From: an uncultured Actinomycetes bacterium
GTDB taxonomy: Bacteria; Actinomycetota; Actinomycetes; Nanopelagicales; Nanopelagicaceae
Reading direction: 5' to 3'
DNA: 64,000 nucleotides
Assembly: GCA_903822425.1 (NCBI GenBank)
Contig: CAIJOY010000047.1
Location: 47,753-111,752, forward strand
In this document: positions 37,188 through 48,993 of the stretch, one piece after another
How positions within the stretch are numbered: position 1 is the first letter of the stretch
Layout: each line of letters starts with the position of its first letter
Notes under the pieces: model-generated
The model's input: only the letters and a program-made list of their open reading frames with translations
What the model was told of the DNA's origin: nothing
Database searches by the model: none
Translations under genes and position numbers: made by a program

Positions 37188-38222
37188 ATGCGAGCTTCAT
37201 CGAAAAAAACGGAAGTGGTCGCTAAACGTGCCACTATTCGAGATGTTGCAGCAAGAGCGGGCGTTTCTAAGTCTCTGGTCTCACTTGTTTTTAGTGATCC
37301 GGCAGCGGTTAGCGCTGATAAGAAGCGACGCGTGCTTAAAGCAGCAGAGGACTTGAACTTCACTCCCAATTTTTTAGCGCGATCTTTAGCAACTGGATCT
37401 GGAATCTTCGTAGGAATTCTTGTAGCAGATCTCCATAATCCACTTTTTGCCGAAATTGTAGATTTTGTGCGATTGGAACTTGAAGGTGCAGGGGAGTACG
37501 GTTTTATGACATCAGCCATGTTGCCAGGACTCGATGGAGTTCCTCGCTTAGATAGCCGCACCGTAAATGCTTTGATCGATCTCCGACCACGCAGTGTGCT
37601 GGTTGTTGGGTCCATCTCCGATTTAAGCCCACTCGATAAGATTCCTGCGGATGTCCAAATAGTGGTTGCTAGTGCAATTCCCTCAAAACTTAAGCGCGCA
37701 ATATCAGTTCGAACTGATGATTCGCAAGGAATGGCTTTGATCGTAGATCACTTAGTTGAGCGAGGACATAAAAACATTGCGCATATTGGCGGGGGCGGGG
37801 GAAAAGTTTCGCTGGGTCGCGCGAAAGCTTATGAAGATGCCATGAATGCAAACGGTTTGAAGAAGTACATTCACATCGAAGATGCAGATTTCACAGAGAA
37901 GTCTGGCTACAAAGCTGCCTTGAAAATGCTCAAAGGTTCAAAGCGCCCGACAGCGATAACTGCTGCAAATGATCTTGTGGCAATCGGCATAGAAGATGCA
38001 ATCAAAGAAATGGGCCTAAGTAATATCGCTCTTACGGGATATGACAACACCTATCTGGCGGACATTAAGACCATTTCCTTGACCTCGGTTGACCAAGATA
38101 ATGCTGAAATTGCAGCCCAAGCTGTCAAGTGGCTCACAGGAGTTGAGAGCATCAAAGCCGGTGGCCAATTTTTAGTACAACCACGATTGATTATTCGAGA
38201 TTCCTCCTCCGCTCGGTATTGA
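37188..38222 (+). CDS. LacI-family transcriptional regulator
   Basis: The 344-aa protein has an N-terminal helix-turn-helix, ATIRDVAARAGVSKSLVSLVFSD, with the hinge region NFTPNFLARSLATGSG, followed by a periplasmic-binding-protein-like effector domain (residues 65-344). GGAGAATC precedes the ATG. It is immediately upstream of, and co-directional with, the inositol-type catabolic operon, and a LacI-type palindrome sits in the 60-bp gap between them. Local repression relieved by an inositol-related compound is the simplest reading, but the effector is not readable from sequence. Confidence 0.92.
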   Translation: MRASSKKTEVVAKRATIRDVAARAGVSKSLVSLVFSDPAAVSADKKRRVLKAAEDLNFTPNFLARSLATGSGIFVGILVADLHNPLFAEIVDFVRLELEGAGEYGFMTSAMLPGLDGVPRLDSRTVNALIDLRPRSVLVVGSISDLSPLDKIPADVQIVVASAIPSKLKRAISVRTDDSQGMALIVDHLVERGHKNIAHIGGGGGKVSLGRAKAYEDAMNANGLKKYIHIEDADFTEKSGYKAALKMLKGSKRPTAITAANDLVAIGIEDAIKEMGLSNIALTGYDNTYLADIKTISLTSVDQDNAEIAAQAVKWLTGVESIKAGGQFLVQPRLIIRDSSSARY

Positions 38223-38247
38223 CTTAACTCTTTTTAAGCAATAACTT
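38219..38247 (+). promoter_or_regulatory. Promoter of the inositol-type catabolic operon
   Basis: TTGACT (38219-38224) and TAACTT (38242-38247) are separated by 17 bp, a near-consensus housekeeping promoter. The -35 overlaps the stop codon of the LacI-type gene. The predicted start, near 38253, falls inside the palindromic operator. Confidence 0.65.
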
Positions 38248-38260
38248 TGGAGCGGTCCAA
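38247..38260. promoter_or_regulatory. LacI-family operator palindrome
   Basis: TTGGAGCGGTCCAA is a 14-bp palindrome centred on CG with a single mismatched pair, the classic LacI-family operator architecture. It touches the -10 box and covers the expected transcription start, so bound repressor would block the polymerase. It is 22 nt before the aldehyde dehydrogenase ATG. Confidence 0.68.
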
Positions 38261-38282: not shown

Positions 38283-39731
38283 ATGCAACGCAAGCAACTC
38301 TTAATAGGCGGTCTTTGGAGAGAACCCACCAACGCAAAATTTGAGGAAATTCGATCACCTTTTGATCAACGCGTAATTGGGGAAGTATCTATCGCGGGAT
38401 TGAGTGATGTTGAAAGCGCTCTCGTCGCTGCAGAAAAAGGCGCACATTTATGGCGACGAACCCCAGCGCATAAGCGCGTAACTATTCTCTTGAAAGCTGC
38501 AGCTTTAGCAGATGAACGAGCAGAGGAAATTGCCCAAATTATTAGCGCAGAAAATGGCAAAGCCATCGGAGAAGCGCGAGGTGAGGCGAGCCGATCAGGA
38601 GAGATTATTCGTCTTGCAGCTTTTGAAGGTTCTCAACTTTATGGAAGTACATTGCCATTAGATGCAAATGTCGGCACAGGACAAGAAAAAATAGGTTTTA
38701 CCCTTCGTCAACCGGTTGGAATTGTCGTAGCTATTAGCCCATTCAATTACCCAGCTCTCTTAGTTTTGCATAAATTAGCTCCGGCCTTAGCTGCTGGCAA
38801 TGCTGTAGTTCTTAAGCCAGCTCGCACGACGCCACTTACGGCCCTGGCCCTTGCACAGTGTTTCTTAGATGCTGGATTGCCTGAAGGTGTTTTAAGTGTT
38901 CTCACTGGATCAGGAGCCGAACTCGGCGATGCATTGGTGAGTGATAAAAGAGTGCGCAAAGTTTCATTTACTGGTTCTACTGTTACCGGTGAGCACATAT
39001 CTCGAATCGCTGGGATCAAGAAACTTTCACTTGAACTAGGCGCGTCTTGCCCAGTGATTGTTTTAAAAGATGCGGACTTAGAGCTAGCAACAAATTCGAT
39101 CGCACTTGGTGGGTATGTAAATGCGGGTCAAGTATGCATTTCAGTGCAGCGTGTGATTGTTGATGAATCGATCATGGCTGATTTTCTTAATTTGCTGGCT
39201 CCCAAAGTGTCTGCAATTACTACAGGAGATCCAGGATCAGTTGATACCAAGATGGGGACTTTAATTTCCGCCAAAGAAGCCGCTCGCGTAAATGCGACTA
39301 TTCAAAAAGCGGTTGCTGATGGAGCAAAGTTATTAATGGGTGGCCAAATCGATGGCTCGATCATGCAACCTACAATTTTGACTCATGTTGATCCACGTTC
39401 ATCAATTGCGCAAGATGAACTTTTTGGACCCGCAATAGCGGTGAGCAGTGCGACATCGGTGGCACAAGCAATTGATTTAGCTAATAGCACTTCATACGGA
39501 TTAGGTTCTGGAGTTTTCACTCGCGATGTTTCTGCGGCAATTCAAGCTGCTCGAGAAATAGATTCTGGCATTATCGATATCAACTGGACGCCGCTTTGGC
39601 GGGCAGATTTAATGCCATATGGTGGATTAAAATCTAGCGGCATCGGCAAAGAGGGCGTTCGCTCTGCAGTTGAAGAAATGACCGAAGTAAAGACAGTTGT
39701 TTTACACGGCCAACCTTGGAATCCAGCATGA
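38283..39731 (+). CDS. NAD(P)-dependent aldehyde dehydrogenase (not IolA-like by motif)
   Basis: The 482-aa ALDH has the cofactor and active-site landmarks ISPFNYPALL, FTGSTVTGEHI, LELGASCPVIVLKDADL (Glu base) and GGYVNAGQVCISVQRVIV (nucleophilic Cys). The GQVCISVQR context resembles glycolaldehyde/lactaldehyde or semialdehyde dehydrogenases, whereas methylmalonate-semialdehyde dehydrogenases (IolA) usually carry GQRCMA. It is first in the operon, so it may oxidise the aldehyde released by the HpaI-type aldolase two genes downstream. The substrate is inferred from context only. Confidence 0.88.
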   Translation: MQRKQLLIGGLWREPTNAKFEEIRSPFDQRVIGEVSIAGLSDVESALVAAEKGAHLWRRTPAHKRVTILLKAAALADERAEEIAQIISAENGKAIGEARGEASRSGEIIRLAAFEGSQLYGSTLPLDANVGTGQEKIGFTLRQPVGIVVAISPFNYPALLVLHKLAPALAAGNAVVLKPARTTPLTALALAQCFLDAGLPEGVLSVLTGSGAELGDALVSDKRVRKVSFTGSTVTGEHISRIAGIKKLSLELGASCPVIVLKDADLELATNSIALGGYVNAGQVCISVQRVIVDESIMADFLNLLAPKVSAITTGDPGSVDTKMGTLISAKEAARVNATIQKAVADGAKLLMGGQIDGSIMQPTILTHVDPRSSIAQDELFGPAIAVSSATSVAQAIDLANSTSYGLGSGVFTRDVSAAIQAAREIDSGIIDINWTPLWRADLMPYGGLKSSGIGKEGVRSAVEEMTEVKTVVLHGQPWNPA

Positions 39732-39756
39732 AGATCACACGAGTGAGGGAAAAAAT

Positions 39757-41721
39757 ATGACCACACCCAACTACGGACCAACAATTCGACTAACTGTTGC
39801 TCAAGCAGTTATTAAATATATTTCAGTCCAATATTCAGTGGCCGATGGAGTCAGACAAAGATTTATTCCCGGCGCACTCGGCATATTTGGTCATGGCAAC
39901 CTTGCCGGCTTAGGTCAAGCGCTAGACCAATACAGTGATGAACTTCCATTTATTCAAGGCAGAAATGAACAATCGCTCACTCATGCTGCTATTGCATTTG
40001 CAAAAGCTAATCGCCGCCATCGCGCGCTAGCAGTCACAGCTTCAATCGGACCAGGCGCCCTTAACATGATTACAGCTGCTGGACTTGCAACAGTTAATAA
40101 ACTTCCAGTTTTATTACTACCAGGTGATTCTTACGCAACGCGTCGACAAGGCCCAGTTTTACAACAGCTAGAAAATCCAACTGCACCAGATATCTCAGTT
40201 AACGATGCCTTCAGACCTATCGCTCGCTTCTTTGATCGCATCACTCGCCCTGAACAACTTCTCACCTCACTTCCTTTGGCATTTAGAGTTCTTACAAATC
40301 CGGTTGAAACGGGTGCGGTAGTTATCGCTTTACCTCAAGATATTCAATCTCACGCTTTTGATTTTCCGGTTTCATTTTTTGAAGAACATGATTGGAAAAT
40401 TCGTCGTGCTCTTCCTGATCCAGTAGAGATTTCCGAGATTGCTGCAATTCTTGCTGGTGCCACACAACCAATCATCATCGCTGGTGGAGGAATTAACTAT
40501 TCCGATGCAGGTAAAGAACTCGAAGCAATTGGTGAAGCGACGGGGATTCCGATCTGTGAAACCTTTGCCGGTAAAGGCGCTGTCCAGATTAAGGCTCCAT
40601 GGCAAGTAGGCGGAATTGGCCTAGAAGGCAGCCCGGCTACTAATAAATTAGCAATGAAGGCAGATGTTGTATTACATATTGGCACCCGCCTTACAGATTT
40701 TGCCACCGCATCTCAGTCAATATTTAATAATCCAAAAGTGCAGTTTGTGTCCATCAACATCTCTGAATTTGATGCGATCAAGCAAGGCGCTCACGCTGTC
40801 ATAGGTGATGCAAAGTTATCTTTGAAAGCGTTGTTGCCTGCACTAAAAGGTTACAAAGTTCCTGCGGCGTGGAGCGCTGAAGTAGCTAGCCTGAATAGCG
40901 CTTGGGAGATCGAGCGCATCGATGCGACAAACCCTGACAAGTTATTTGATAAAGCCACTCTTCCTGATTCTCCAATCACTGATGCGATTTTGACACAAGG
41001 GCAGTTGCTCGGAGTGTTGCAAGAGCATGCACGCCCCGGTGACATCATCATTGCTGCAGCGGGTGGCGCCCCCGGCGATGTCCAGAAAGTTTGGGATGCT
41101 ACCGGCGGACGCACAGCGCATCTCGAATTTGGTTTTTCGTGCATGGGATACGAAGTGCCCGCAGCAATTGGCGTGCGCCTTGCTCATCCAAATCCAGCCA
41201 ACCGTGTCACAACTTTCATCGGTGATGGAACCTTCGTAATGGCTCCAACCGAACTTGTTACCGCTGCTCAAGAAGGACTTCCTCTGACAATTGTCATTTC
41301 AGAAAATCATGGGTACCAAGTGATTCGTCGTCTACAGATGTGGCGCACTGGTAAGAGTTTTGGAAATGAATTCCGCTATCGCACTGCTGGTCCACTCTTT
41401 ACCGAGGACGCTGTCGTAGATGGGAAGACATCAAAACTTGAGGGAGATTATCTCAAGATTGATCTTGTTCAGATGGCAAGCGGTATGGGAGCCAAGGCAT
41501 ACCGTGCTCTTAGTGCAGATGATTTCCGCAAGGTGCTTAATCAAACTCGCGACGAACACGGACCAGTTGTAATTGTTGTTCCTACGGTTCAGCACGCACT
41601 ATTACCGGCATCTGGAGTTTGGTGGGATGTAGCACCTGCTGAAGTTTCAACACAGAGTTGGATTGCTCCACTTCGCAAGGATTACGAAGATGGCTTGGGC
41701 ACTCAAAGGTGGCACGGATGA
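39757..41721 (+). CDS. iolD: 3D-(3,5/4)-trihydroxycyclohexane-1,2-dione hydrolase (IolD)
   Basis: IolD is a thiamine-diphosphate enzyme that opens the cyclic dione of inositol catabolism to 5-deoxyglucuronate. The 654-aa protein aligns by eye along its length: TIRLTVAQAVIKYISVQYS, FGHGNLAGLGQAL, the activating Glu in IQGRNEQSLTHAAIAFAK, VTASIGPGALNMITAAG, and the ThDP/Mg motif FIGDGTFVMAPTELVTAAQE with NHGYQVIRRLQ. The track start (39697) lies in the ALDH gene; ATG 39757 has GAGGG upstream. The next gene overlaps its stop (ATGA). Confidence 0.93.
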   Translation: MTTPNYGPTIRLTVAQAVIKYISVQYSVADGVRQRFIPGALGIFGHGNLAGLGQALDQYSDELPFIQGRNEQSLTHAAIAFAKANRRHRALAVTASIGPGALNMITAAGLATVNKLPVLLLPGDSYATRRQGPVLQQLENPTAPDISVNDAFRPIARFFDRITRPEQLLTSLPLAFRVLTNPVETGAVVIALPQDIQSHAFDFPVSFFEEHDWKIRRALPDPVEISEIAAILAGATQPIIIAGGGINYSDAGKELEAIGEATGIPICETFAGKGAVQIKAPWQVGGIGLEGSPATNKLAMKADVVLHIGTRLTDFATASQSIFNNPKVQFVSINISEFDAIKQGAHAVIGDAKLSLKALLPALKGYKVPAAWSAEVASLNSAWEIERIDATNPDKLFDKATLPDSPITDAILTQGQLLGVLQEHARPGDIIIAAAGGAPGDVQKVWDATGGRTAHLEFGFSCMGYEVPAAIGVRLAHPNPANRVTTFIGDGTFVMAPTELVTAAQEGLPLTIVISENHGYQVIRRLQMWRTGKSFGNEFRYRTAGPLFTEDAVVDGKTSKLEGDYLKIDLVQMASGMGAKAYRALSADDFRKVLNQTRDEHGPVVIVVPTVQHALLPASGVWWDVAPAEVSTQSWIAPLRKDYEDGLGTQRWHG

Positions 41722-42506
41722 GTTCGCGCTCACCGCTAGATCAAGGCGTGCTACGCGCCCGAATTAATGCCCATGAATTTAGCATGGGCATCTTCGTAGG
41801 TTTGAACGCACCCATGAGCGCTGAAATTGCTGCGCTAAATGGTGTTGATTGGGTACTTCTCGATCTCGAGCACGGCGGTGGAGGAGAAGATCAAGTAGGA
41901 CCAACCGTTGTTGCAGCAGGTGCTTATGGTGTTCCAACACTTGTACGCGTTGAATCTGCAGCACGAATTCGTATTGGGCGAGCACTTGATGCAGGCGCTG
42001 CAGGAATAATGATTCCTCGCCTCGAATCACCCAGTGAAATTCAAGAAAGTATTAAGCACTTGAGCTATCCGCCTCTTGGTGATCGTGGTGTTGCGACATA
42101 TAACCGTTCTGCCCAGTGGGGAAAGAATGCTGCCGCCCTGACCGCACCACGCACGTGTGTTGGCATAGTGCAAATTGAATCAGCGAAGGCCCTTGGGAGT
42201 ATTGATGAAATTGCTGCTATAGATGGTGTTGATGTTTTATTTATCGGGCCACTGGATTTAAGTTTTGATCTTGGAGTTCCACGCGATTTCAAGAACCCCA
42301 AATTTATCGAAGCTACCGAAAAAGTAGTGAATGCGGCAAAGAAGGCAGGAAAGGTTGCCGGTATTTTGGCACTGGATGCTGCTGGTGCTATCGATTATCG
42401 AAACCGCGGATTTAATTTTGTCGCGGTGGGATCTGATTCCACACTCTTAGCTAGTGCAGTAAATGCTCAAATGACCGAAGTACGCACACAAACGACGAAT
42501 AAATAA
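41718..42506 (+). CDS. HpcH/HpaI-family class II aldolase
   Basis: The 262-aa TIM-barrel protein has the HpaI-family landmarks WVLLDLEHGGGG (catalytic His), TLVRVESAARIRIGRALDAGAAGIMIPRLES, GIVQIESAKAL (metal Glu) and FIGPLDLSFDLGVP (metal Asp). HpaI enzymes cleave 4-hydroxy-2-oxo acids to pyruvate plus an aldehyde. In a standard inositol operon this step is done by IolJ on a phosphorylated sugar acid, so this aldolase points to a different lower pathway. ATG 41718 overlaps the iolD stop; the track start is too long. Confidence 0.88.
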   Translation: MSSRSPLDQGVLRARINAHEFSMGIFVGLNAPMSAEIAALNGVDWVLLDLEHGGGGEDQVGPTVVAAGAYGVPTLVRVESAARIRIGRALDAGAAGIMIPRLESPSEIQESIKHLSYPPLGDRGVATYNRSAQWGKNAAALTAPRTCVGIVQIESAKALGSIDEIAAIDGVDVLFIGPLDLSFDLGVPRDFKNPKFIEATEKVVNAAKKAGKVAGILALDAAGAIDYRNRGFNFVAVGSDSTLLASAVNAQMTEVRTQTTNK

Positions 42507-42516
42507 TAGGAGAACA

Positions 42517-43740
42517 GTGTCTACCTCAGAAAATACGAAGAAGCACGTCATTGGAGTGGGACTTATCAGCGTTGGCTGGATGGGCAAAGTCCATACCAAG
42601 GCCTATCAAGCTCTCCCTGTTGTTTATCCTGAGCTAGGTATCAGCGCACGTCTGATCATTGCTGCAGATACTTCACAAGAACGTGCCGACTACGCCGTCA
42701 ACGTTTTAGGATATGAGAAATCAACTTTGGATTACAAGGACGTTCTTGCTCATCCAGATGTTGATGTGGTTTCCATCTGTGCACCAAACTTCTTACACGC
42801 AGAGATTGCTATTGCTGCAGCTAAGGCAGGTAAAGCTTTTTGGTTAGAAAAACCTGCAGGACGCAACGCACAAGAAACTGAGAGTATCGAGACTGCCGCG
42901 AACGCCGCTGGCATTATCACCTCAATTGGTTTTAACTATCGCAATGCTCCTGCAGTTGAATATGCCAAGAAGATCATTGCCGAGGGGGCCATAGGCCGCA
43001 TTACCAACGTCCGCGGCACTTTCTTCGCTGATTATTCAGCAGATCCCCGCGGAGCACTTTCCTGGCGCTTCATCCGCAAACTTGCAGGAAGTGGAGTACT
43101 CGGTGACTTAATGGGTCACCTTGCAGATTTGATGCACTATGTCGTAGGGCCCATTGATGAAGTCTGTGGAGTTACAAAAACAATCCATACGCAACGGCCT
43201 GAATTGCCGATGGGCACGGGTACTCACTTTGCAATCATTGAAGGTGGAGATATGAAGCCTGTCGAGAATGAAGATTACGGTGCCATGTTGGTTCACTTTG
43301 CAGATAATGCAGTGGCTGCCGGTGCTCTTGGAACGTTAGAAGCCTCTCGCGTTGCAGTAGGCCCACGTGCCCGCTATACCTTTGAAATCTACGGAACTGA
43401 TGGTTCGGTTAAATGGAATTTCGAACGCATGAATGAACTAGAACTCGCAGTTGGAATCAGTGGTGACAAAGTTGGTTACCAGACAATCATGGCTGCGCCT
43501 GGTTTTGGGGATTTCTCTCACTTTCAACCTGGCGCTGGAACAGGAATGAGCTATGACGATCTCAAGATCATCGAAGCAAAGAAATTCTTGATTTCTTATA
43601 TTGGGGGAGTGAGCGAGAATTCAAACATTCATGATGCTGTTGCGGCTGCTCGCGTAGTTTCGGCAGTTGAAGAATCTGCCTCAAGCAAGAAGTGGATTCC
43701 AATTAAACAATCTGTTGGAACAACAGCAGCGATTCGATAA
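42517..43740 (+). CDS. Gfo/Idh/MocA-family dehydrogenase (inositol-type), first copy
   Basis: The 407-aa NAD(P)-dependent dehydrogenase starts at GTG behind GGAGAACA. The Rossmann motif is GVGLISVGWMGKVHTKAY, the conserved catalytic Lys lies in FWLEKPAGRN, and the substrate domain contains GSGVLGDLMGHLADLMHYVVG. The family oxidises inositols, inososes and related polyols. A second, shorter member closes the operon, so the two probably act on different isomers or steps. The substrate is unassigned. Confidence 0.88.
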   Translation: MSTSENTKKHVIGVGLISVGWMGKVHTKAYQALPVVYPELGISARLIIAADTSQERADYAVNVLGYEKSTLDYKDVLAHPDVDVVSICAPNFLHAEIAIAAAKAGKAFWLEKPAGRNAQETESIETAANAAGIITSIGFNYRNAPAVEYAKKIIAEGAIGRITNVRGTFFADYSADPRGALSWRFIRKLAGSGVLGDLMGHLADLMHYVVGPIDEVCGVTKTIHTQRPELPMGTGTHFAIIEGGDMKPVENEDYGAMLVHFADNAVAAGALGTLEASRVAVGPRARYTFEIYGTDGSVKWNFERMNELELAVGISGDKVGYQTIMAAPGFGDFSHFQPGAGTGMSYDDLKIIEAKKFLISYIGGVSENSNIHDAVAAARVVSAVEESASSKKWIPIKQSVGTTAAIR

Positions 43741-43750
43741 AGGTCCTCCA

Positions 43751-44698
43751 TTGGCACAAGAAATGACAGTTCTAGCACTTGGTGCTGTTGATGCTGCCAT
43801 CGTTTCTCCAATTCTTGGACCAGACGTTCGTTATGTTGAAAATCCCACTGCCGATGATTACAAGAAAGCCGTTGGAGTTATCGCGCGTGCGGCGGCGGTT
43901 GTAGATCGCTCGCTGATTGATTCGATGCCAAATTTAAAAGTAATTGCGAGAACCGGGGTCGGTACCGAGCTCGTGGATCTAGTTGCTGCAAGTGAACGTG
44001 GAATACCTGTTGTAGTTACGCCAGGTGCGAACTCGCGAGCCGTAGCCGAAGGCACCCTGGCCCATATTTTGCACTTGGTGAAAAGACTTGGCCCACTGAC
44101 TTCACTTGTTCAATCCGAACGCTGGAATGAACGTACAAAATATCCTGTAGGTGATCTATTTGGCCAAACCGTGGGAATCGTTGGCCTCGGCCGTATTGGC
44201 ACCCTCCTTGCTGATTATTGCTCGGCTTTAGGAATGCAAGTCCTCGCTTTTGATCCTTACGCACAGGTACCGCCTGCTATGAAAGTACAAGATGTCAATG
44301 AACTTTTCAAAAATTCAGATGTAATTTCCCTCCACCTGCCCCTGACGCCTCAAACCGAACACTTAATTAATCACAGTGCAATTAATTCGATGCGTGATGG
44401 TGTCATCATTGTTAACTGCGGCCGTGGTGCTTTGATCGATCTGGATGCAGCGCTTGTGGGGCTGCAAAGCGGAAAGATTGGTGGATTAGGTTTGGATGTC
44501 TTTGATCCAGAACCACCTCAACGTCACGAAATTTTTCTTCATGAAAATGTTGTCCTAACTCCCCATGTCATGGGACTCAGTATCCAATCAACACAAACAA
44601 CTTTCATCGATGCTGCTCAAGGAGTGGCAGATGTATTGCAAGGCAGAACACCAAAGGCAATTGCCAATCCAACACAGGAAACAGGGAGAAATACATGA
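43751..44698 (+). CDS. D-isomer-specific 2-hydroxyacid dehydrogenase
   Basis: This is a phosphoglycerate-dehydrogenase-type enzyme with NAD motif VGIVGLGRIGTLLADYCSALG, the catalytic Arg region IIVNCGRGALIDLDAAL, the Glu region GLGLDVFDPEPP and the catalytic His in LTPHVMGLS. No ACT domain follows, so it is a catabolic or general form, not a regulated SerA. The track start (43667) lies inside the previous gene; TTG 43751 has AAGG seven nt upstream, and ATG 43763 is an alternative. The start overlaps nothing; the end overlaps iolE by 4 bp. Its 2-hydroxy/2-oxo acid substrate may feed the HpaI-type aldolase. Confidence 0.85.
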   Translation: MAQEMTVLALGAVDAAIVSPILGPDVRYVENPTADDYKKAVGVIARAAAVVDRSLIDSMPNLKVIARTGVGTELVDLVAASERGIPVVVTPGANSRAVAEGTLAHILHLVKRLGPLTSLVQSERWNERTKYPVGDLFGQTVGIVGLGRIGTLLADYCSALGMQVLAFDPYAQVPPAMKVQDVNELFKNSDVISLHLPLTPQTEHLINHSAINSMRDGVIIVNCGRGALIDLDAALVGLQSGKIGGLGLDVFDPEPPQRHEIFLHENVVLTPHVMGLSIQSTQTTFIDAAQGVADVLQGRTPKAIANPTQETGRNT

Positions 44699-45597
44699 GC
44701 GCCAAGAAAGCAAAAATCGCAGCAGCACCAATTTCATGGGGAGTGTGTGAAGTTCCTGGATGGGGATTGCAGATGGAACCGAGCCGTGTTTTAAAAGAGA
44801 TGAGTGACTTAGGTTTTGGAGCAACTGAATTTGGCCCAGAAGGTTTTCTCCCTATGGATCCTGCTCTTAAGGCATCGATTCTAAAAGAGCACGGCATGAG
44901 CGCTGTTGGAGGTTTCGTACCAGTCATTTTGCATAAAGGCGATCACGATCCACTTCCAGGGATAGTTGAAGAGCTAAAGGGATATGAAGCAGCAGGTGCT
45001 GAAGTTCTTGTCCTTGCAGCAGGCACGGGCATCGATGGTTATGACGCTAAACGTCCCGTCCTGACTGATGCAGAATGGAATATTGTCTTTACAAATCTTG
45101 ATCGAATTCGTGATTACGCAGCCACAAAATCAGTTAAAGCAGTTCTACATCCCCATGTCGGAACAATGGTGGAAACTGAAGATGACATCATGCGCGTATT
45201 ACATGGTTCTGCAATTCCATTCTGCCTAGACACTGGCCACATGCTCATTGGCGGAACTGATCCTGTTGCTTTTGCACAAAAGTATTCAGATCGCGTTGCC
45301 CATAGCCACTTGAAAGATGTTGATCTTTCTTGGGCTAAAAAAGTCCAATCTGGCGAGCTAACTTACTATCAAGCAGTCACCAAAGGCATGTACCGCCCTC
45401 TTGGTCAAGGAGATCTAGATGTGCGCGGAATTGTGCGCAGTTTGCTCTCTGCAGGGTATGACGGTTGGTTCACACTTGAACAAGACAATGTTGTTGCCGA
45501 AGCTCCTGCAATTGGGCAAGGTCCGATGTTGGATGCGAAAGCCAGCGTTGCCTTCTTGCAAGGTGTGCTCGATGAGTTCTATGCCGAACAGCGCTAA
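44695..45597 (+). CDS. iolE: Inosose dehydratase / sugar isomerase-epimerase family (IolE-like)
   Basis: The 300-aa TIM-barrel protein begins AAAPISWGVCEVPGWG, the IolE/MocC-type N-terminus. Metal-binding and active-site stretches include AVLHPHVGTMVETEDDI, FCLDTGHMLIGG, VAHSHLKDVD and YRPLGQGDLDVRGIV. IolE dehydrates scyllo-inosose to the dione used by IolD, encoded three genes upstream. A xylose-isomerase-like epimerase activity cannot be excluded by sequence alone, but IolD in the operon supports the IolE call. The ATG overlaps the previous stop (ATGA). Confidence 0.87.
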   Translation: MSAKKAKIAAAPISWGVCEVPGWGLQMEPSRVLKEMSDLGFGATEFGPEGFLPMDPALKASILKEHGMSAVGGFVPVILHKGDHDPLPGIVEELKGYEAAGAEVLVLAAGTGIDGYDAKRPVLTDAEWNIVFTNLDRIRDYAATKSVKAVLHPHVGTMVETEDDIMRVLHGSAIPFCLDTGHMLIGGTDPVAFAQKYSDRVAHSHLKDVDLSWAKKVQSGELTYYQAVTKGMYRPLGQGDLDVRGIVRSLLSAGYDGWFTLEQDNVVAEAPAIGQGPMLDAKASVAFLQGVLDEFYAEQR

Positions 45598-45606
45598 CAG
45601 CTACCG

Positions 45607-46620
45607 GTGAAGATTGCAGTAATTGGCTTAGGGCGAATCGGTTTGATGCATGCTCGAAATCTGGCGCAACACAAGAGTGTGGATCAAGTTCTCCTTGTCG
45701 GTCGCGATTCTGACCGCTTGAAGATTGCAAGTGCAAAAGTTGCTGATCAACTTGCAACCGATGCTGAGAAAGCAAAGTTAAGTTCAACACTTGATCTTGA
45801 CGCAGCAATTGTTGAAAGCGATGGAGTCCTCATCGCCAGTTCATCAGCTTCGCACCCAGAGTTAGTGCGTAAATGCATCGCGCATTCACGTACCACCCTG
45901 GTTGAAAAACCTTTAGCACTTGAACTCAATGAATTGGAATCTCTCGCAAATGAGATCGAAAAAAGTGGCACCGAAGTAATGGTGGCATTTCACAGAAAGT
46001 ACGATCCACATTTTCAAGCACTTCGGCAAAAAGTTGCTTCGGGTGAAGTTGGCACTGTTCGCCTTGTCCGATCAACCGCCTTGGATCACAACGGACTCAA
46101 TCTGGATTACATCGGTTCATCCGGTGGAGTCTGGCGAGACATGTTAATTCATGATTTTGATCTAATCCCATGGGTTCTAGGTGAAAAAGTGATCTCTGTT
46201 CAAGCATTTGGTGCAGTTCTGGATGAGCCAACATATGCCAAGTTCGGTGATGCTGACACAGCTGTAGCAGTGCTCGAATTCGAATCAGGAGCAATTGCAA
46301 CAGTTGCAGGGACCCGACGCAACGGTGCCGGACAAGATGTACGCCTTGAAATCTATGGAACAAAGAACACTTTCTCTGTCGGTTTTGATTCACATGCACC
46401 TGTCACTTCAATTGAGAGTGATGGTTTTCATCCACAAGGAATCTATGAAGATTTCATGGATCGCTTCGAACCGACGTTCAAGGCAGAGGTAGATCACTTC
46501 ATCAAACTTATTAAGGGCCAAGCACAGAACTTAACTAGCGCTAGAGACGGCTTAACCTCACTTCGAATCGCAATCGCAGCTGAGGAGTCTCGAAAGTCCC
46601 GCATGCCAGTGCTACTTTAG
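45607..46620 (+). CDS. iolG: Inositol 2-dehydrogenase-type Gfo/Idh/MocA protein
   Basis: The 337-aa protein has the NAD motif VIGLGRIGLMHARNLAQH, catalytic Lys in TLVEKPLALEL, and the substrate-domain sequence GGVWRDMLIHDFDLIPWVLGE (Asp/His), matching IolG-type inositol dehydrogenases in length and order. IolG oxidises myo-inositol to scyllo-inosose, the substrate of IolE. It starts at GTG 9 nt after iolE without a strong ribosome binding site and ends the operon. Confidence 0.87.
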   Translation: MKIAVIGLGRIGLMHARNLAQHKSVDQVLLVGRDSDRLKIASAKVADQLATDAEKAKLSSTLDLDAAIVESDGVLIASSSASHPELVRKCIAHSRTTLVEKPLALELNELESLANEIEKSGTEVMVAFHRKYDPHFQALRQKVASGEVGTVRLVRSTALDHNGLNLDYIGSSGGVWRDMLIHDFDLIPWVLGEKVISVQAFGAVLDEPTYAKFGDADTAVAVLEFESGAIATVAGTRRNGAGQDVRLEIYGTKNTFSVGFDSHAPVTSIESDGFHPQGIYEDFMDRFEPTFKAEVDHFIKLIKGQAQNLTSARDGLTSLRIAIAAEESRKSRMPVLL

Positions 46621-47425: not shown

Positions 47426-47956
47426 TTGAGAAACGAAAACATCGGCAACATTCCTAATCGTAGAATTATTATGGTTGGGCCAATGGGTGTTGGGAAATCA
47501 ACAGTAGGGAAAATGTTGGCAGAAATTCTTGAGTGGAAATATATTGATAATGACTTTGAAATGTCCAGAATGGCATCTCTATCGATTAAGGAATTGACTC
47601 AATTAGATGTGCCGAGTCTGCATGCACTCGAAGCCGATTACTTGAGAGAGGTTCTTACTCGCCCAGCACCGCTCATAGCAGGTGCTGCTGCCTCCATCGC
47701 TGATAATTTAGATTTAGTGAATGCGCTTAAAAATGAATTCACTGTGTACTTGCACTTACCGCTTGAAGATCAGCTACACCGTGCCGGAAAGACAGGTGTT
47801 GGACGACAGGGGTTAATTGAAAACCCGACCACGGTCATCCGCCAACGATATGAAAGACGTGATCCCAGGTATCGTAAAGTTGCTTCCTTGGTAATTGAAA
47901 CAAGCATTGGTCCAGAAAGCGCGGCGGCTTTGATACTCGAGAAGTTGAAGTCATAG
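47426..47956 (+). CDS. Shikimate-kinase-like P-loop protein lacking key substrate residues
   Basis: The 176-aa product has a Walker A motif VGPMGVGKSTVGK and IDNDFEM, the counterpart of the AroK Asp motif. The AroK FR.E motif is LHALE here (Arg lost), the shikimate-binding GGG is GAAAS, and RPLL is RQGL. The late Arg region RYERRDPRYRKVA is retained. It thus has the nucleoside-kinase fold but probably not shikimate kinase activity. TTG 47426 is preceded by AAAGGA at six nt; ATG 47471 would clip the P-loop strand. It lies 19 bp after tRNA-Tyr and away from other aro genes. Confidence 0.8.
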   Translation: MRNENIGNIPNRRIIMVGPMGVGKSTVGKMLAEILEWKYIDNDFEMSRMASLSIKELTQLDVPSLHALEADYLREVLTRPAPLIAGAAASIADNLDLVNALKNEFTVYLHLPLEDQLHRAGKTGVGRQGLIENPTTVIRQRYERRDPRYRKVASLVIETSIGPESAAALILEKLKS

Positions 47957-48030
47957 TTTCCCATGTCCCCACGCAACACTTTAACTCGCACTAGACTTAT
48001 GGGCGCAAACACTGCCGAAATGGAGGCGAA

Positions 48031-48993
48031 GTGAGTTCAATTAATTTTGGCATGATTGGACTTGGTCGAATGGGCGCCAATATTGTCCGCCGCCTTTCTC
48101 AGCATGAAATTACCTCTGTTATCTATGACCAATCACCAGATGCCATCAAAGTGTTGGCTGCAGAAGGTGCAACTGCGGCATCAGATTTGGCAGATTTGGT
48201 TTCGAAAATTGCCACTCCTCGCACAATCTGGATCATGGTCCCATCTTCCGCGGTGGATGCAACTATCGAAGATTTGTCTCAACATCTATCACGCGGGGAC
48301 ACAGTTATTGATGGCGGTAACAGCCACTACAAAAATGATGTAGTTAACGCAAAGAAATTAGCGGCTCTAGGCATCAGCTTTGTAGATATTGGTACTAGCG
48401 GCGGAGTCCATGGCCTCTCACGTGGATATAGCTTGATGATTGGCGGGGAAAAGGAAGTTGTTGAAAGACTTGACCCATTATTTAAGGCACTTGCACCGGG
48501 GGTTGATTCTGCTACACGTACTCCTGGGCGAAAAGGTGAGCCTTCTCAGAGTGAACATGGTTATCTTCACTGCGGCCCCCATGGTGCTGGTCATTTTGTA
48601 AAGATGATCCACAACGGAATTGAGTACGGCATGATGGCAGCAATCGCAGAAGGACTAGCGATTTTTGAAGCAGCCGACGGAATGACTCCTGCTTACGAAT
48701 TTGATATTGCAGAAATAACTCAAGTATGGCGGCGCGGAAGTGTTGTTGATTCTTGGTTATTAGATTTAACAGCACAATCATTGCAAGAAAGCCCTGACCT
48801 TCTCGAGTATTCCGCATCTGTAAGTGACAGTGGAGAGGGACGTTGGACGGTTCAAGCTGCTGTTGAAGCAGGGATCCCAGCGCATGTGTTGAGTGCCGCT
48901 CTGTATTCGCGTTTTGCTTCAAGAGATAACGACGAATTCGCTAACCGTTTGCTCAGCGCTATGCGCAGCCAATTCGGCGGCCATACAGCATAG
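48031..48993 (+). CDS. gnd: 6-phosphogluconate dehydrogenase, decarboxylating, short type
   Basis: The 320-aa enzyme oxidatively decarboxylates 6-phosphogluconate to ribulose 5-phosphate. Landmarks are MIGLGRMGANIVRRL, DGGNSHYKNDVVNAKKLA, VDIGTSGGVHGLSRGYSLMIGGE and GPHGAGHFVKMIHNGIEYGMM (catalytic Lys). Its length is that of the short GndA/YqeC-type form, about 150 residues shorter than E. coli Gnd, often NAD-preferring. The GTG is preceded by GGAGG. It stands alone. Confidence 0.92.
   Translation: MSSINFGMIGLGRMGANIVRRLSQHEITSVIYDQSPDAIKVLAAEGATAASDLADLVSKIATPRTIWIMVPSSAVDATIEDLSQHLSRGDTVIDGGNSHYKNDVVNAKKLAALGISFVDIGTSGGVHGLSRGYSLMIGGEKEVVERLDPLFKALAPGVDSATRTPGRKGEPSQSEHGYLHCGPHGAGHFVKMIHNGIEYGMMAAIAEGLAIFEAADGMTPAYEFDIAEITQVWRRGSVVDSWLLDLTAQSLQESPDLLEYSASVSDSGEGRWTVQAAVEAGIPAHVLSAALYSRFASRDNDEFANRLLSAMRSQFGGHTA

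Follow-up and report, generated by a model that had tools for sequence, protein, structure and literature searches.

Phytate and plant exudates supply inositol, a common carbon source whose breakdown in bacteria is usually taken to require the kinase IolC. The classical myo-inositol pathway, known from B. subtilis, S. enterica and C. glutamicum, runs through IolG-IolE-IolD-IolB-IolC-IolJ-IolA and produces malonate semialdehyde. HpaI-type aldolases, for which hydroxypyruvate is a usable donor, are familiar from non-phosphorylative sugar-acid routes (GarL, RhmA/YfaU and HpaI). A 2022 survey of inositol gene clusters required three of iolBCDE within 10 kb (PMC9430895), a rule under which a core unit whose only genes of this group are iolD and iolE goes uncounted. 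We found no description of an HpaI-linked inositol operon in the open-access literature, a weak negative that applies to open-access texts only.

An operon with this combination of genes is present in the window analysed here, a stretch of 64,000 nucleotides from an uncultured member of the Nanopelagicaceae. The order to which it belongs is presumably the freshwater acI group, judging from one member (SCGC AAA278-O22). Seven ORFs, all on the + strand, occupy positions 38283-46620, and the ORF list and profile matches bore out the protein families named in the preliminary description. That description had also relied on overlapping stops and starts; two of the six junctions do overlap, by 4 nt each, and the other four are gapped by 9-25 nt. 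A motif check of the translations found the catalytic motifs intact in all seven proteins, and IolD alone among them passed a curated cut-off in the profile search.

The first gene (38283..39731; PF00171) encodes an aldehyde dehydrogenase (ALDH) with lactaldehyde dehydrogenase as both its nearest curated model (477.5 bits, cut-off 650) and its nearest solved chain (3pqa). As had been judged earlier, this ALDH is not IolA-like: it scored 261.8 bits on the methylmalonate-semialdehyde dehydrogenase (IolA-type) model, below the cut-off of 448.5, which rules out its being IolA, and a true IolA (methylmalonate/malonate-semialdehyde dehydrogenase, 707 bits) sits on contig C15. It is followed by IolD (3D-(3,5/4)-trihydroxycyclohexane-1,2-dione hydrolase; 39757..41721; TIGR04377, 771.7 bits, cut-off 715), the sole IolD of the genome, and by an HpaI/HpcH class II aldolase (41718..42506; PF03328, 126 bits). 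In alignment the catalytic His, Arg, Glu and Asp positions of this aldolase agree with solved HpaI/YfaU chains, and its scores lie below the equivalog cut-offs for HpaI (165.5/368.8 bits), GarL (153.0/406.75 bits) and RhmA (137.2/441 bits). Next comes a Gfo/Idh/MocA dehydrogenase of the levoglucosan / scyllo-inositol dehydrogenase type (42517..43740), for which the best model is levoglucosan dehydrogenase (317.8 bits against a cut-off of 650) and the nearest solved chains are 6a3f (a putative dehydrogenase) and 5ya8 (scyllo-inositol dehydrogenase). The fifth gene (43763..44698; PF02826, PF00389) encodes a D-2-hydroxyacid dehydrogenase (HADH) of the PGDH / glyoxylate-hydroxypyruvate reductase type; the Arg/Glu/His motifs are present, and the true start codon may lie upstream of 43763. 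The operon ends with an IolE-like inosose dehydratase (44695..45597; TIGR04379, 161.3 bits, below the cut-off of 290), with IolE chains 9zmu and 3cny as its best solved matches, and an IolG-like inositol dehydrogenase (45607..46620; TIGR04380, 267.4 bits, below the cut-off of 355). Directly 3' of the operon, positions 47426-48993 of the window encode a P-loop protein that resembles shikimate kinase but reaches no cut-off, and an NAD-dependent 6-phosphogluconate dehydrogenase at curated level.

A gene for a LacI-family regulator (37188..38222, + strand; PF00356, PF13377), predicted to be the probable repressor of the operon, precedes these genes, and orthologues with 50-59% identity occupy the same position in related acI loci. 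A candidate LacI-type operator, TTGGAGCGGTCCAA, is found at 38247..38260 (listed without a strand), 22 bp upstream of the ALDH start codon. The TTGGANCGNTCCAA motif, which LacI would bind, has a single exact match in essentially the whole genome, at the operon. Sites with one mismatch are few across the same sequence, and one is biologically placed: TTGGACCGCTTCAA on contig C41 separates an ABC transporter of the inositol/rhizopine type from a divergent SDR-IolG pair. The IolG of this pair passes its cut-off (411.6 bits, cut-off 355), and the binding protein of the transporter has the rhizopine SBP as its best model; the binding proteins of the regulon's transporters score 176-215 bits on that model, below its cut-off of 420. 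Identification of the SDR as a uronate dehydrogenase was not supported, its nearest solved relatives being RmlD-type reductases.

The operator was also found in related genomes: of 16 related HpaI loci scanned, 14 contained a single site, and 379 kb of acI sequence lacking the gene set contained none. Its position in Micrococcaceae, Brevibacterium, Alpinimonas and others is ahead of the ALDH gene, the gene for a sugar-binding protein, an IolG gene or an SDR gene, and the neighbouring IolG genes of Arthrobacter, Brevibacterium, acI and Alpinimonas pass the IolG cut-off. Read from the sequences, these links to a curated-level IolG and to an inositol/rhizopine-type transporter tie the operon to a predicted inositol-type substrate.

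The lack of IolB and IolC pointed out in the preliminary description holds for the operon, but not for the genome. Contig C48 carries IolB (249.9 bits, cut-off 205) and IolC (375.8 bits, cut-off 300), both above their curated cut-offs, which rules out their absence from the genome. Between them lies a gene that we take to be of the Cgl0159 type, a name taken from C. glutamicum, and that no curated model matched. The same contig holds a second IolE-like copy (144.0 bits, below the cut-off of 290), and contig C3 holds one class II FBA homologue; this homologue and the Cgl0159-type gene are candidates for an IolJ-type phospho-aldolase. The operon is thus an addition to the textbook inositol route in this genome and not a replacement, and with IolB, IolC and Cgl0159 intact on C48 the earlier idea of a "replaced" lower pathway has to be given up. 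Intact iolB and iolC elsewhere under the same operator had been named as evidence against that idea: the intact genes were found, but the scan detected no operator at the C48 iolB-iolC locus. This rules out the locus as a member of the same regulon here, although the IolB of relatives does share the operator.

Outside the order, loci were searched for by HpaI similarity, and the best 80 of the 169 relatives obtained were examined. These 80 come from Arthrobacter, Streptomyces, Brevibacterium, Rhodococcus, Sinomonas, Pseudonocardia, Microbacteriaceae and others. An IolD of the same type adjoins HpaI in 80/80 of them, and since the loci were picked by HpaI similarity alone this linkage is not due to chance. 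The neighbours also include HADH in 78, ALDH in 77, the Gfo/Idh dehydrogenase in 75-76 and IolE in 63 of these best 80 loci, and the IolG-like gene is an operon member (at least 40% identity) in nine, for example in Brevibacterium. In a tree the HpaI-linked IolDs (IolD2) form one clade with 100/100 support, apart from the classical IolDs; long branches meet near the root, and the unity of the clade is surer than its placement relative to other clades. Judged from these homologous loci, the gene set is a conserved unit across Actinomycetota rather than the decayed remnant of an iol operon. Of 45 outside genomes searched with a joined IolB+IolC+Cgl0159 query, all except one returned three or more matches, and a separate classical IolD was found in L103 and in all 12 classical loci fetched. 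Because classical iol genes coexist with it in outside genomes, the gene set is usually a second pathway outside acI.

Within the order, 74 of the 296 genomes sampled have IolD and 17 have a window-type HpaI. These 17 all carry IolD and IolB as well, IolD2 being the sole IolD in acI genomes with the set. The shared order of the locus is SDR-LacI-ALDH-IolD-HpaI-Gfo/Idh-HADH-IolE; in many cases IolB, or IolC-Cgl0159-(IolA)-IolB, lies divergently next to the unit, and in many set genomes IolB stands divergent beside the same operator. IolC and Cgl0159 were found in three of the 17 set genomes, that of the window among them, and went undetected in the other 14, which include genomes 92-99% complete (G011, G016, G009, G020 and G023). 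Loss of IolC is, however, not specific to the set, as 28 of 57 related IolD genomes without it likewise have no IolC, and its value as a diagnostic trait of the HpaI branch is weakened. Other PfkB kinases, below the IolC cut-off, are present in many genomes and could substitute for IolC. Malonate-semialdehyde dehydrogenase was found in 11/11 well-assembled genomes tested. One genome, G015, has IolD2 without the set: its reduced locus (L048:3982-8817) consists of IolC-IolB divergent from IolD2-IolE, with no HpaI, ALDH, LgdA-like gene, HADH or LacI. Its IolD is nested within the HpaI-linked clade, and the oxidative branch thus appears to have been lost secondarily. From the distribution over the 17 genomes and from G015 it follows that, within the order, no well-covered IolD2 genome is without both of the two candidate lower branches.

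Other loci of the order showed different arrangements. Several acI genomes that have classical IolD-IolB-IolA and lack IolC carry a transaldolase-family gene (~358 aa) near IolD (L077:10333-11406, L082:5551-6627, L075:5712-6788, L076:11616 and L083:6742); if 2-deoxy-5-keto-gluconate were cleaved in the manner of fructose-6-phosphate aldolase, this would make a further kinase-free branch. G267, G269, G270, G271, G273, G275 and G276, all of the same genus, have IolD and IolB and gave no IolC match at E 1e-50, and the fetched loci L065, L078, L080, L084 and L085 showed no transaldolase-family gene; L065, L080, L084 and L085 are examples from this group of genomes. An IolB homologue beside IolD and IolC in G290 (C178:13185-13964) contains three in-frame stops and is either a pseudogene or an assembly error. 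Some public MAG titles (at L112, L121, L113 and L154) look mislabelled: two contigs under the name Bifidobacterium breve (CAMAYZ010000001.1 and CAMCPZ010000008.1) are 180106 and 43985 bases long, exactly as long as contigs of the acI-order genomes G020 and G021, and the MAGs labelled Gulosibacter massiliensis may be a similar case.

We propose, at a probability of roughly 0.45, that the operon is part of a LacI-controlled inositol (cyclitol) regulon that is parallel to classical iol and has a kinase-free lower branch. The preliminary description's central idea, an inositol-type upper half and an oxidative, aldolase-based, kinase-free lower half acting as one unit, is strengthened by the Actinomycetota-wide conservation and by the 14 of 17 set genomes without IolC and Cgl0159. 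The chemistry can be put forward more tentatively: an oxidative, kinase-free pathway would lead via 5-deoxyglucarate and 3,4-dihydroxy-2-oxoadipate to hydroxypyruvate and malonate semialdehyde, under a LacI regulon conserved in Actinomycetota, and some abundant freshwater acI bacteria may have no other apparent lower branch for inositol.

In this scheme, imported inositol would be converted to inosose by the C41 IolG and by the IolG-like and scyllo-inositol-dehydrogenase-like enzymes of the window, and the inosose would then be dehydrated by IolE and ring-opened by IolD to 5-deoxyglucuronate. As C1 of 5-deoxy-D-glucuronate is an aldehyde and its C2 hydroxyl is D-configured, the ALDH could oxidize C1 to yield 5-deoxyglucarate, and the D-2-hydroxyacid dehydrogenase, whose family takes in 2-ketogluconate reductases, could oxidize the C2 hydroxyl to yield 3,4-dihydroxy-2-oxoadipate. 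The latter belongs to the 4-hydroxy-2-oxo acids, the class of compounds on which HpaI acts, and HpaI would cleave it to hydroxypyruvate and malonate semialdehyde. IolA would take malonate semialdehyde to acetyl-CoA, and the whole branch would run without a kinase, with IolB, IolC and Cgl0159 providing a parallel phosphorylated branch in this genome. No homologue of the E. coli-type GarK (glycerate kinase) or GarR (tartronate semialdehyde reductase) was found in this genome, so that hydroxypyruvate would be left to transamination to serine or to another kinase family. The linkage of the core genes in nearly all of the best 80 loci, the IolD clade, the placement of the operator, the set genomes without IolC and Cgl0159, the G015 locus, the constant presence of malonate-semialdehyde dehydrogenase in the genomes tested and the intact catalytic residues favour this scheme as the best explanation at the level of sequence.

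Given the IolB/IolC/Cgl0159 matches in nearly all genomes searched outside acI, a second route for inositol would be redundant there if both had the same substrate. It is conceivable, though in our judgement doubtful, that the operon acts on some other cyclitol, such as a rhizopine, a deoxy-inositol or another isomer of inositol. From it the IolD and IolE paralogues would yield a deoxy-uronate unusable by IolB, which would explain the oxidative HpaI branch, and myo-inositol would be left to the classical locus. Coexistence of the set with a classical locus and a classical IolD outside acI, the long stem of the IolD2 clade and the rhizopine SBP match of the transporter binding protein, below cut-off as it is, would all agree with such a substrate. 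However, IolD2 passes the IolD equivalog cut-off and is, as the only IolD in acI set genomes, always accompanied by IolB, and its occurrence with IolC-IolB and without the HpaI set in G015 suggests that its product is 5-deoxyglucuronate.

The kinase-free oxidative scheme needs no IolB, and the retention of IolB in all 17 set genomes, in many of them divergent from the same operator, is its main unexplained fact. IolB would find a place if 5-deoxyglucuronate were isomerised to 2-deoxy-5-keto-gluconate and HpaI cleaved this compound to malonate semialdehyde and dihydroxyacetone, directly or after C6 oxidation. Such a route seems improbable, since HpaI enzymes act on 2-oxo acids, E. coli-type DhaK/DhaL have no homologue in this genome, and the ALDH and the hydroxyacid dehydrogenase would be left without clear roles. 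Finally, a split ordinary pathway, with the operon giving IolG-IolE-IolD only, the C48 IolB-IolC-Cgl0159 performing the lower steps and HpaI, ALDH and HADH serving an unrelated sugar acid, would suit a genome with intact IolB, IolC, Cgl0159 and IolA and a single IolD, but is very improbable, as HpaI, ALDH, the LgdA-like gene and HADH remain linked to IolD2 across Actinomycetota, the operator is missing from C48 and relatives carry the set without IolC.

From its predicted functions, the gene set is probably a parallel, kinase-free inositol branch. If so, its presence in Arthrobacter, Streptomyces, Rhodococcus and freshwater acI would alter the prediction of inositol use from genomes, because surveys that demand iolB/iolC in the cluster overlook it. 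Moreover, the regulon (operator, transporter and seven enzymes) is testable in culturable soil bacteria.

Compared with the classical myo-inositol pathway, the operon has in common an IolD above its cut-off, IolE and IolG homologues and the predicted 5-deoxyglucuronate and malonate semialdehyde nodes. Unlike that pathway, it is a unit without isomerase, kinase or phospho-aldolase, with HpaI, a D-2-hydroxyacid dehydrogenase and a non-IolA ALDH instead, and it has an IolD of a separate clade and a LacI regulator with its operator. The class II aldolase fold, the catalytic residues and the expected aldehyde and 2-oxo acid products are shared with the GarL, RhmA/YfaU and HpaI routes, but the operon would receive its substrate from a ring-opened cyclitol, hydroxypyruvate takes the place of pyruvate as the predicted nucleophile, and the window aldolase falls far below all of their cut-offs. 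Levoglucosan and scyllo-inositol dehydrogenases (6a3f, 5ya8) are the nearest solved relatives of the fourth protein of the operon, which differs from levoglucosan dehydrogenase in its score (less than half of the cut-off) and in having inositol genes as neighbours. Rhizopine (scyllo-inosamine) catabolism differs by the low scores already given, and it resembles the regulon in that the rhizopine SBP is the best match of the regulon's binding protein.
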